Shown piece after piece: positions 39,600 through 58,591 of a DNA stretch of 64,000 bases. The stretch lies in contig JABDMH010000012.1 in NCBI GenBank assembly GCA_013001595.1, positions 32,301 through 96,300 of the forward strand, written 5' to 3'. The stretch comes from Saprospiraceae bacterium (GTDB lineage: Bacteria > Bacteroidota > Bacteroidia > Chitinophagales > Saprospiraceae). The notes beneath the pieces were generated by a model. It worked only from the letters and a program-made list of their open reading frames with translations. It had not been told where the DNA came from and ran no database searches. Position numbers and translations under genes: made by a program. Position 1 is the stretch's first letter. Each line of letters starts with the position of its first letter.

Positions 39600-39694
39600 A
39601 GTTCGGTGCAAGAATATGAACCTCTACCTGTGGCCTGCGGTGACCTAACACCTAATTACCTCCATACCTGAACACCCTGATACCTCAACACCCG
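39600..39694. repeat. imperfect direct repeat copy 1
   Basis: AGAATATGAACCTCTACCTGTGGCCTGCGGTGACCTAACACCTAATTACCTCCATACCTGAACACCCTGATACCTCAACACCC; shares GACCTAACACCTAATTACCTCCATAC-like core with copy 2. Confidence 0.8.
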
Positions 39695-39759
39695 TGCAAA
39701 AGTTGTTTGAATCGAGGGGTACAACTTCGCTACCGTTACGCTCACCCTGACTTTGGATG

Positions 39760-39858
39760 TTGATTCCGGCTAAATAATATGCACCTTTACTTGTGGGCCT
39801 TGGGTAACCTAACACCTAATTACCTCCATACTTCAACACACCCTAACACCCTAACACC
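39760..39858. repeat. imperfect direct repeat copy 2
   Basis: AATAATATGCACCTTTACTTGTGGGCCTTGGGTAACCTAACACCTAATTACCTCCATACTTCAACACACCCTAACACCCTAACACC. Confidence 0.8.
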
Positions 39859-39911
39859 ACTGATTCATTCAGAAGGTGTAACTTTCTCTCAGATCATACG
39901 TATTACTTACA

Positions 39912-55717: not shown

Positions 55718-56980
55718 ATGTCTAAAGAACTACATACAGAATTACTCAGATTTACCACAGCCGGTTCCGTAGATGATGGCAAGTCTACCTTAATCGGAAG
55801 ATTGCTATACGATAGTAAAAGCATCTTTCAGGATCAGTACGATGACATCGAACGCATCAGTGCCAAGAGAGGTGAAGAAGGAGTAAATCTCGCTCTGTTG
55901 ACCGATGGTCTTAAGGCCGAGCGAGAGCAAGGAATTACGATTGATGTCGCATATCGATATTTTTCAACACCGAAGCGCAAATTTATCATTGCTGATACGC
56001 CGGGTCACATACAATATACACGCAACATGGTGACGGGCGCATCGACCGCCAATGTTGCCCTGATGCTGATCGATGCGCGAAATGGAGTGGTAGAGCAGAC
56101 CAGGAGACATGCCATCATTGCCTCATTCCTACAAATACCACACGTGGTGGTGTGTGTCAATAAGATGGATTTGGTCGATTATAGTGAGGAAGTGTTTACG
56201 TCCATCCATGACCAGTTTGAAGCCTTCGCCGCGAAATTGGACATCAAAGACTTTCATTTTATTCCCATCTCAGCGCTGAAAGGTGACAATGTGGTCACCA
56301 GAAGTGAGAATACGGGTTGGTATGAAGGGCCAACTCTGATGTATTATCTGGAAAATGTACACATCGCTAGTGACCATAATTTCATCGATTGCCGTTTCCC
56401 TGTCCAGCATGTGATCAGACCTTACAATGATGATTTCCACGACTATCGTGGCTACGCTGGCCGATTGGCAGGAGGCGTTTTTAAGGTGGGTGATGAAGTG
56501 ATGGTCTTACCCTCTGGATTTACTTCCAAAGTTGCCAGAATAGACACCTTTGATGGGGAACTAGAAGAGGCATTTCCTCCAATGTCAATAACCATATTGC
56601 TGGAGGATGATATCGATGTGAGCCGAGGTGATATGATCGTGCGAGTGAGCAATTCCCCTCGTGTGACCCAAGATATTGATGCTATGTTGTGCTGGTTTGA
56701 CAACACCAAGCCTATTCAACCCAGGGGCAAATACACCATTAGACATACTACGCAAGAAGCACGATGCATTGTCAAAGAAGTGAAATATAAGCTTGACATC
56801 AATTCATTGCACCGTAATCTCGGGGACACTCAATTGCAAATGAATGACATGGGGCGAGTAGTGCTGCGCATCACCAAACCTCTCTTTGTTGACTCCTACC
56901 GCCAGAATCGAATTACCGGAAGCATCATATTGGTAGATGAAGGGACCAATAATACGGTGGCTGCAGGGATGATTATCTGA
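55718..56980 (+). CDS. cysN: sulfate adenylyltransferase subunit 1 (GTPase)
   Basis: TAGSVDDGKSTLIGRLLYDSK; EQGITIDVAYRYFSTPKRKFIIADTPGHIQYTRNMVTGAS; VNKMDLVDY. Confidence 0.97.
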   Translation: MSKELHTELLRFTTAGSVDDGKSTLIGRLLYDSKSIFQDQYDDIERISAKRGEEGVNLALLTDGLKAEREQGITIDVAYRYFSTPKRKFIIADTPGHIQYTRNMVTGASTANVALMLIDARNGVVEQTRRHAIIASFLQIPHVVVCVNKMDLVDYSEEVFTSIHDQFEAFAAKLDIKDFHFIPISALKGDNVVTRSENTGWYEGPTLMYYLENVHIASDHNFIDCRFPVQHVIRPYNDDFHDYRGYAGRLAGGVFKVGDEVMVLPSGFTSKVARIDTFDGELEEAFPPMSITILLEDDIDVSRGDMIVRVSNSPRVTQDIDAMLCWFDNTKPIQPRGKYTIRHTTQEARCIVKEVKYKLDINSLHRNLGDTQLQMNDMGRVVLRITKPLFVDSYRQNRITGSIILVDEGTNNTVAAGMII

Positions 56981-57041
56981 TTGTTTAACTGTACAATTGT
57001 TGAGTTGTTAAAATACGTTCTGCTTTAATTAATCCAGTCGG

Positions 57042-57413
57042 ATGTACCAATATTCTTTTGAAAAGCTGGACGTCTGGAAGCGGGCGATTTTGCTTTCTAA
57101 GGAAATCTATCTTCAGACGAAGAAGTTTCCGGAAACAGAGAAATTCAGTTTGATCTCCCAGATAAGAAGGGCTTCAGTGTCTGTTACTGCAAATATTGCT
57201 GAAGGATCGGCACGATCAACTGCTAGAGAAAAGCAGCGTTTCTATCAGATCGCCTATGGCAGTCTCATGGAAGTCCTCAATTTTTTGATTTTATCTCGTG
57301 AGTTAAAATATCTAAGCGAAGAAGATTATTTGATGGACCGATCTCTGGTAAACGAGGTGGCAAATAAGTTAAATGCCTTGTCAAAAAGTGAAGACAGGAA
57401 GCGCAGTCAATAA
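57042..57413 (+). CDS. four helix bundle protein (23S rRNA intervening-sequence/S23 family)
   Basis: YSFEKLDVWKRAILLSKEIYLQTKKFPETEKFSLISQIRRASVSVTANIAEGSARSTAREKQRFYQIAYGSLMEVLNFLILSREL. Confidence 0.92.
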   Translation: MYQYSFEKLDVWKRAILLSKEIYLQTKKFPETEKFSLISQIRRASVSVTANIAEGSARSTAREKQRFYQIAYGSLMEVLNFLILSRELKYLSEEDYLMDRSLVNEVANKLNALSKSEDRKRSQ

Positions 57414-57443
57414 ACAGTTAAGCAATTAAAAAATTCAACCGTC
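57374..57443. repeat. tandem duplication copy 1 (S23 3' end into intergenic)
   Basis: TGCCTTGTCAAAAAGTGAAGACAGGAAGCGCAGT...TAAACAGTTAAGCAATTAAAAAATTCAACCGTC. Confidence 0.8.
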
Positions 57444-57463
57444 GGGTAATTACTCTAATTAGA

Positions 57464-57547
57464 TGTCTGGTCAAATAGTGAAGAAGGGAACTGCAGCTGC
57501 AGTTGATAAACAGCTAATCAATTAAACAATTGAACAATTCAACCGTC
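57464..57547. repeat. tandem duplication copy 2 (intergenic into epimerase start)
   Basis: TGTCTGGTCAAATAGTGAAGAAGGGAACTGCAG...GATAAACAGCTAATCAATTAAACAATTGAACAATTCAACCGTC. Confidence 0.8.
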
Positions 57548-58591
57548 CTCATCACCGGTTCCGCAGGATTTATCGGCTACCATACCGTCAATCGGTTTCT
57601 GCAGGCTGGTATGAAAGTAGTGGGTATAGATAGTGTCAACGATTATTATAATCCTACCTTAAAATTTGACCGGTTAAAAGAAGCGGGAATAGGTGCTGGG
57701 GCTGAAGTTTGGGAGAAGCCGGTATCAAGTGTCAAGGATGAAAATTACACTTTTGTTCGCATTGACCTGAAGAATAAGCAGGCGCTAGATGCGCTATTTG
57801 AAAAGTACTCCTTTACGACCGTGGTGCATTTGGCTGCTCAACCAGGGGTGCGATACAGCTTGCAAAACCCGGGGGCATACATCGACAGCAACATTGTGGG
57901 ATTTTTGAATGTGCTAGAAGCATGTAGACATCATGCAGTAAAGCATTTGGTATTTGCCAGTAGTAGCAGTGTCTATGGAATGAATCGAAAAATGCCCCTT
58001 TCAACCACCCATACTACAGATCATCCCATTTCACTTTATGCCGCCACCAAGAAGAGTAATGAATTAATGGCACATACCTATAGCCACCTGTTCAACATAC
58101 CTACCACCGGTTTGCGATTTTTCACGGTATATGGTCCATGGGGTAGACCAGATATGGCTACCCAATTGTTTGCGGATGCCATCAGCAAGGGCGACCCGAT
58201 AAAGATATTTAATCAAGGCTTATTGAGCCGTGATTTTACCTATGTGGCTGACATCGTCGAAGGCATATTTCTAGTGAGCCTGAAGCCACCATCGGCAGAT
58301 GAGCAATGGGACGGAGAAAATCCCAATGCAGCATCCTCTTCTGCCAGATATAAGTTGTATAACATAGGCAACAGTAAACCGGTACAATTAATGGACTTCG
58401 TTTCCAATCTGGAAGATGCCTTGGGCAAAAAGGCCGTCAAAGAGTATTTACCTATGCAGCCCGGTGACGTAACCGACACTTTTGCAGATGTCACTCCGTT
58501 GCAACAAGATTTTCAATATCAACCCACCACGGAGCTGAAGGATGGATTGGACAAATTTGCCAAATGGTATCAAAGCTATTGCGCCCTATAG
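57530..58591 (+). CDS. NAD-dependent epimerase (UDP-glucuronate 4-epimerase-like)
   Basis: VLITGSAGFIGYHTVNRFLQAGMKVVGIDSVNDYYNPTLKFDRL; VVHLAAQPGVRYSLQNPGAYIDSNIVGFLNVLEA; SLYAATKKSNELMAHTYSHLF; GLRFFTVYGPWGRPDMA. TTG start. Confidence 0.93.
   Translation: MNNSTVLITGSAGFIGYHTVNRFLQAGMKVVGIDSVNDYYNPTLKFDRLKEAGIGAGAEVWEKPVSSVKDENYTFVRIDLKNKQALDALFEKYSFTTVVHLAAQPGVRYSLQNPGAYIDSNIVGFLNVLEACRHHAVKHLVFASSSSVYGMNRKMPLSTTHTTDHPISLYAATKKSNELMAHTYSHLFNIPTTGLRFFTVYGPWGRPDMATQLFADAISKGDPIKIFNQGLLSRDFTYVADIVEGIFLVSLKPPSADEQWDGENPNAASSSARYKLYNIGNSKPVQLMDFVSNLEDALGKKAVKEYLPMQPGDVTDTFADVTPLQQDFQYQPTTELKDGLDKFAKWYQSYCAL

Follow-up and report, generated by a model that had tools for sequence, protein, structure and literature searches.

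Within the window, as the 64,000-nucleotide stretch of a Saprospiraceae bacterium contig analysed here is called, a gene of the S23 (23S_rRNA_IVP) family stands between cysN and a gene for an NAD-dependent sugar epimerase. The question raised by this locus is whether the gene is an ordinary resident or has been inserted, and if so as part of what. The annotation 'four helix bundle protein' is encountered very often, and no function is known for it; it would be given a role if S23 proved to be the gene of a mobile cassette. It is highly probable that the S23 gene and the two repeat arrays that flank it are a single mobile cassette of ~0.4-0.65 kb, which inserts at short junctions between genes. 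Such cassettes are widespread in bacteria of very different kinds, where they stand between adjacent genes, every one with its own matching short-repeat tails and with no known transposase.

The S23 gene of the window and its flanks

The protein encoded by the S23 gene matches PF05635 (1.8e-34, 118.6 bits, cut-off 33.8) and TIGR02436 (2.1e-30, 105.1 bits, cut-off 24). Its structure is predicted with a pLDDT of 95.7 and, as predicted, has the four-helix-bundle fold of 2gsc, the top PDB match in Foldseek (E 1.8e-8, TM 0.91). According to PMC4990558, which cites Lin et al. 2006, 2gsc is a pentamer built of four-helix bundles. The next PDB matches are the S23 protein 2rld and then Avd (4dwl), the accessory protein of diversity-generating retroelements (DGR), and the TM with Avd 4dwl and with the DGR complex 8ub7 is ~0.77. 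Homology of S23 and Avd has been noted previously (PMC10053308). The first-pass annotation had also called S23 a relative of Avd, which stands for the fold but not for the sequence scores: the Avd equivalog profile gives 26.9 bits, under its 80-bit cut-off, and the bAvd profile gives a sub-cut-off match only.

That annotation had placed the S23 gene between imperfect inverted ends, with no transposase present, and both observations are borne out. The inverted repeat pairs 56980-57009 with 57509-57538, over 30 nt that are 77% complementary, and has a z of 3.6, with none of 60 shuffles scoring as high. No transposase, nor any gene besides S23, is present among the ORFs of the cysN-epimerase interval. 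There is no 23S or other rRNA in the window, and the S23 gene is therefore not inside an rRNA gene. The left arm opens with the final base of the stop codon of cysN, and the epimerase ORF takes its first codons from the right arm (Table 1). What the earlier reading did not include is that the right end of the S23 element, together with the tail of the gene, is duplicated. The A/T-rich repeat of the window has scattered matches with 2-3 mismatches elsewhere in the genome, and its only full-length match is at this locus.

Table 1. The S23 locus of the window and its neighbours, in window positions
Feature	Positions	Strand	Remarks
cysN, upstream neighbour	55718-56980	+	stop TGA at 56978-56980, touches left arm; operon order common to G000, G001 and G005
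Left arm, G/T-rich repeat-like array ATTGTTTAACTGTACAATTGTTGAGTTGTT	56980-57009	+	77% complementary to right arm
S23 / 23S_rRNA_IVP gene, four-helix bundle	57042-57413	+	123 aa; profile matches, predicted fold
End unit, first copy (last S23 codons and right arm)	57369-57441	+	repeat comparison
Inner right arm ACAGTTAAGCAATTAAAAAATTCAACCG	57414-57441	+	57414-57434 81% complementary to 56972-56992 (left end)
End unit, second copy, diverged	57459-57543	+	imperfect repeat of 57369-57441
Outer right arm, C/A-rich	57509-57546	+	overlaps the epimerase ORF, whose N-terminus it encodes
NAD-dependent sugar epimerase, downstream neighbour	57530-58591	+	ORF, profile search

Judged on its letters alone, the inverted repeat of the window would count as modest evidence, convincing only by way of its relatives. 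The window copy is seen as a resident and partly rearranged member of the class, the exact boundaries and history of which are unresolved and which is without an exact empty counterpart. Two further observations concern duplicated ends. A PDDEXK_3 element (L240, 2700-3010) has its left arm and first codons in tandem duplicate, which mirrors the right-end duplication of the window. Elsewhere in the window, at 39612-39860 between an oxidoreductase gene and an ECF sigma gene, a 7-8-nt array that is rich in C/A and poor in G (ACCTAACACCTAATTACCTCCATACC...) occurs twice with no S23 gene; this resembles a solo right arm, duplicated as is the right end of the S23 element.

Inverted arrays around S23 genes

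The family is common in the Saprospiraceae, PF05635 being present in 54 of 61 genomes. A sample of 147 distinct S23 genes was drawn from this genus and family and from GTDB loci in Bacteroidota, Patescibacteria, Acidobacteriota, Gemmatimonadota and others. Most of these loci belong to one family or to the top 80 relatives of the S23 protein in the window, and the sample lacks phylogenetic independence. The 250 nt on each side of every gene were compared, with 250 long genes from the same loci as controls. Among the S23 genes, 73% have flanks that are inverted relative to each other at z > 3, and 59% at z > 5, with a median of 6.4, against 4% and 1% of the controls, whose median is 0.0. About a quarter of the S23 genes have no clear inverted arrays at the threshold used. 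It is these relatives that settle the matter; the z of the window alone would be weak.

The arms are short tandem arrays, with a period of 7/14 or 8 in most of the left arms that have a clear repeat; any such short-period repeat was seen in only 5 of the 250 controls. Their median length is 45 nt, and the resulting element is ~550 bp. G outnumbers C in the left arm of 90 of 94 elements, and each arm, read inwards, is thus G/T-rich. The junctions occupied are mostly co-directional (55 of 82 elements) and the cassette often starts at the upstream stop codon, the distance having a median of -3 nt and being 12 nt or less in 34 of 67. No match to S23 was found in phages, and no 23S rRNA was found around the gene in the 20 non-Bacteroidota loci checked. 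On a Nitrospirota contig a group I intron (L060, 4622-4837) lies downstream of an S23 gene, at a distance of ~280 nt.

The repeat unit differs among elements, even in one genome, yet is the same across both arms of an element. Similarity between left and right arms is 0.55 within an element; for left arms of different elements it is 0.18 when both come from one genome and 0.17 when they do not. The arms thus belong to the element and stay matched while changing fast. Between elements, arm similarity is 0.35 where the S23 proteins are 60-80% identical and 0.64 above 80% (6 pairs). Only close relatives share an end motif, and the ends are not conserved through the family as those of an insertion sequence (IS) or MITE would be. 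TCAGGAG-type arms are common to related S23 genes that stand at different sites. The expectation that the A/T-rich repeats of the window would recur around other S23 genes was therefore not met, as each element has arrays of its own, matched between its arms. The second S23 gene in the window's genome, a pseudogene with stops (G000:C132:1840-2132, L004), is enclosed by inverted GGCTATTGGC-type arrays that, read by eye, are unlike those of the window.

In another genome an S23 gene and its array stand in tandem with a period of ~614 bp (G034:C90:53030-53955, L167). These copies were rejected as evidence of movement, being a local duplication of ~614 bp.

Empty and filled sites

The operon cysD-cysN-epimerase is conserved in the genus of the window. 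In G001 there is no S23 gene at either cysD-cysN or cysN-epimerase, the latter being the junction that the first reading proposed to compare among relatives. In the window's own genome (G000) the cysN-epimerase junction is filled and the cysD-cysN junction is empty. In G005 there is an S23 gene at cysD-cysN and a second, whose start region is broken, at cysN-epimerase; their arms are of GGTTGCC and GGTTTAA types, differing between the two copies. In G002 an array-like stretch is present upstream of the epimerase, where the contig stops. The second S23 gene of G005 shares its junction with that of the window and is not clearly its orthologue: neither the one nor the other reading, independent insertion or rapid divergence, can be preferred, since the pair fails as reciprocal best matches.

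Complete cyanobacterial plasmids provide direct evidence of mobility for the class, with sites that are near-identical except that an entire cassette, together with its arms, is there in one and missing in another. Plasmid C of Trichormus variabilis has a 423-bp cassette, including its arms, that is absent from Nostoc linckia, where the flanks are 98-99% identical (488/493 and 576/585). The insert has GTAAT on both sides, a clean 5-bp target duplication. Judged by alignment coverage, this cassette is also absent from five other plasmids of ~98% identity. A truncated S23 relic is found at the same site in plasmid pC052_E of Nostoc C052 (L279).

In Nostoc plasmid pNsp_c the cassette splits an overlapping TAATG stop/start, both genes remain whole, and an (A)ATG duplication is consistent with the sequence. 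At a third Nostoc site TTCT is present on both sides of the insert; since the arms contain TTCTG, this duplication is ambiguous. A cassette between nrdB and nrdA in Nostoc pNe_5 is absent in Calothrix. Empty counterparts were also found for cmr2-cmr3, a junction that holds an S23 cassette in L272, for an integrase junction and for the third Nostoc junction.

In the type I-D CRISPR locus of Anabaena sp. 90 plasmid pANA02 (L263) an S23 cassette is present between cas6 and cas4, and the new cas6 stop and cas4 start come from its arms, while a 99.3% identical Dolichospermum locus has cas6-cas4 without it. A cassette with different arms is present at the same type I-D junction in Pseudanabaena galeata pPg_01 (L266). 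The 23S_rRNA_IVP genes in cas loci beside cas4 and cas6 have been discussed among CRISPR-Cas-associated functions (PMC3936711). For at least one S23 gene the empty cas6-cas4 site offers a simpler reading than such a function, and if the cassette reading is true, S23 genes near cas4 and cas6 need not be part of CRISPR-Cas at all. A Dolichospermum cas6-cas4 junction (L268, ~622-855) holds an unrelated MITE-like insert with inverted repeats (TAGGTTGGGTTG...CAACCCAACCTA).

Target-site duplication is clean in one case (GTAAT), consistent in two ((A)ATG and TTCT) and, at the cas6-cas4 site of Anabaena sp. 90, absent or rearranged. Some of the empty sites could reflect loss of a cassette; a retained target duplication could not. 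The first-pass annotation had proposed a small non-autonomous element, mobile or RNA-linked, and of these the mobile part is upheld by presence and absence in the genus, by the plasmid sites and by at least one short target duplication.

Possible means of movement

The cassette encodes S23 only, without nuclease or transposase, and we know of no mobility activity of S23. PDDEXK_3 (GxxExxY) genes were compared as a lead, and 59% of them have inverted flanks at z > 3 (n = 29). Their arrays (L208-L237) are of other motif types (CGCAAAGG, ACGCAGATT, CTGAATTAGGATT) and a few of the genes lie within ~2 kb of an S23 gene. Across 61 genomes the copy numbers of PDDEXK_3 and S23 are correlated (rho 0.53, or 0.44 given genome size, uncorrected for phylogeny), and seven genomes have at least three S23 genes without PDDEXK_3. 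PDDEXK_3 is thus a candidate partner on the basis of similar ends and copy-number correlation, which are suggestive only. Near-identical PDDEXK_3 copies in G023 were tried for the mapping of boundaries and set aside, as their similarity extends into the neighbouring gene and there are no clean ends.

From these features a means of movement may be inferred, although movement itself has not been observed and the scheme as a whole is tentative, with the balance against it. S23, with its Avd fold, would recognise, in DNA or in RNA form, the arrays that belong to its own element, and would draw the element ends together. A nuclease acting in trans, perhaps PDDEXK_3, would make a staggered cut. The arms would be kept matched through one being copied off the other as the element moves, and 23S rRNA intervening sequences would be such copies that had landed in rRNA. 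Whether S23 and PDDEXK_3 (GxxExxY) cassettes make up a new class of mobile element across phyla is evenly balanced. The class so proposed would have private, fast-changing inverted ends of 7-8-nt arrays that are recognised by structure or by their own S23 and kept alike by arm copying, with the 23S rRNA intervening sequences as one branch.

The intervening sequences with an S23 ORF in the 23S rRNA of Leptospira and Coxiella are among the nearest known relatives in form: the protein family is the same, they are ~430 nt and they have terminal inverted repeats, an arrangement around the S23 ORF that the window also has. In Coxiella, heptameric repeats are present just upstream of the S23 ORF, and mobility has long been suspected or proposed (PMC4990558). 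Unlike the cassettes, which occupy protein-gene junctions and have element-specific arrays, they are located in rRNA helices. Since the Coxiella sequence combines S23 with a 28-bp stem and heptamers, the two are plausibly one kind of element, a comparison that rests on form and not on phylogeny. If true, this would offer an origin for the long-puzzling intervening sequences.

The same likeness leads to the alternative that has lost least ground, in which the arms act as RNA and form a stem, with S23 in its loop, that is excised by RNase III so that operons and rRNA can tolerate the insertions. Cleavage of the Coxiella sequence by RNase III in its 28-bp terminal stem, with heptamers before S23 (PMC4990558), is in keeping with this, as is the preference of insertions for co-directional junctions. 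However, the RNA fold of the window is not unusually stable (z -1.4), the arm mismatches have no significant bias towards G.U (G.T) over A.C (222 against 190, p 0.13), and the Nostoc nrdB-nrdA copy is antisense to its operon. The ordinary fold energy and the absence of significant G.U bias led to rejection of an RNA hairpin as the driver, and the RNA link of the first-pass hypothesis is not shown. An RNA role such as that in the rRNA intervening sequences remains possible, although the fold and mismatch analyses gave no sign of it. This account is a real if less favoured possibility, and may describe an extra function of the cassette rather than its means of movement.

A retroelement mobilised in trans by a reverse transcriptase (RT), S23 acting as its Avd, is improbable. 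The predicted fold does match Avd 4dwl and the DGR complex 8ub7, but the likeness to Avd stops at structure, as the cassette has no DGR reverse transcriptase. No RT adjoins the S23 gene among the surrounding ORFs of the window, and the sole RT match in its genome is a fragment on another contig. RT was rejected as a partner since its copy number has no correlation with that of S23 (r -0.02 after removing genome size), and nine genomes with at least five S23 genes have no RVT_1 hit.

There is only a slim chance that the cassette is a MITE-like passenger mobilised by the transposase of an ordinary IS through recognition of the cassette ends. The cassettes do resemble MITEs and insertion sequences in their inverted ends, short length and, in the clean GTAAT case, target duplication. 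They differ in having unconserved ends, no transposase gene and a conserved non-transposase gene aboard. Because the ends have no common sequence across elements, even in one genome, they do not fit a sequence-specific transposase, and the cargo is conserved across phyla.

It is scarcely credible that S23 is simply a resident gene with unrelated A/T-rich repeats in the intergenic sequence next to it, inverted by chance or as terminators are; the imperfect, A/T-rich repeats of the window and their z of only 3.6 would permit it, but the proportion of inverted flanks (73% for the 147 S23 genes, 4% for the controls) and arms that match within and not between elements speak against it, and the insertion of gene and arms as a unit at the empty and filled sites refutes it for the class.

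The mobile cassette, if accepted, raises the question of how an element moves when its ends have no fixed sequence, which the insertion-polymorphic plasmid pairs in culturable cyanobacteria make approachable. It would also explain many short-repeat arrays between bacterial genes. Among open-access PMC papers none was found that connects inverted arrays with S23 or GxxExxY genes. The heptamer arrays (TAACTGA) known from cyanobacteria, Bacteroidetes and Beggiatoaceae were described as repeats in direct orientation, and S23 does not enter into that description (PMC4679880). Like the cassette arms, these are tandem units of 7 nt between genes; unlike them, the arms are paired, inverted and enclose a gene.
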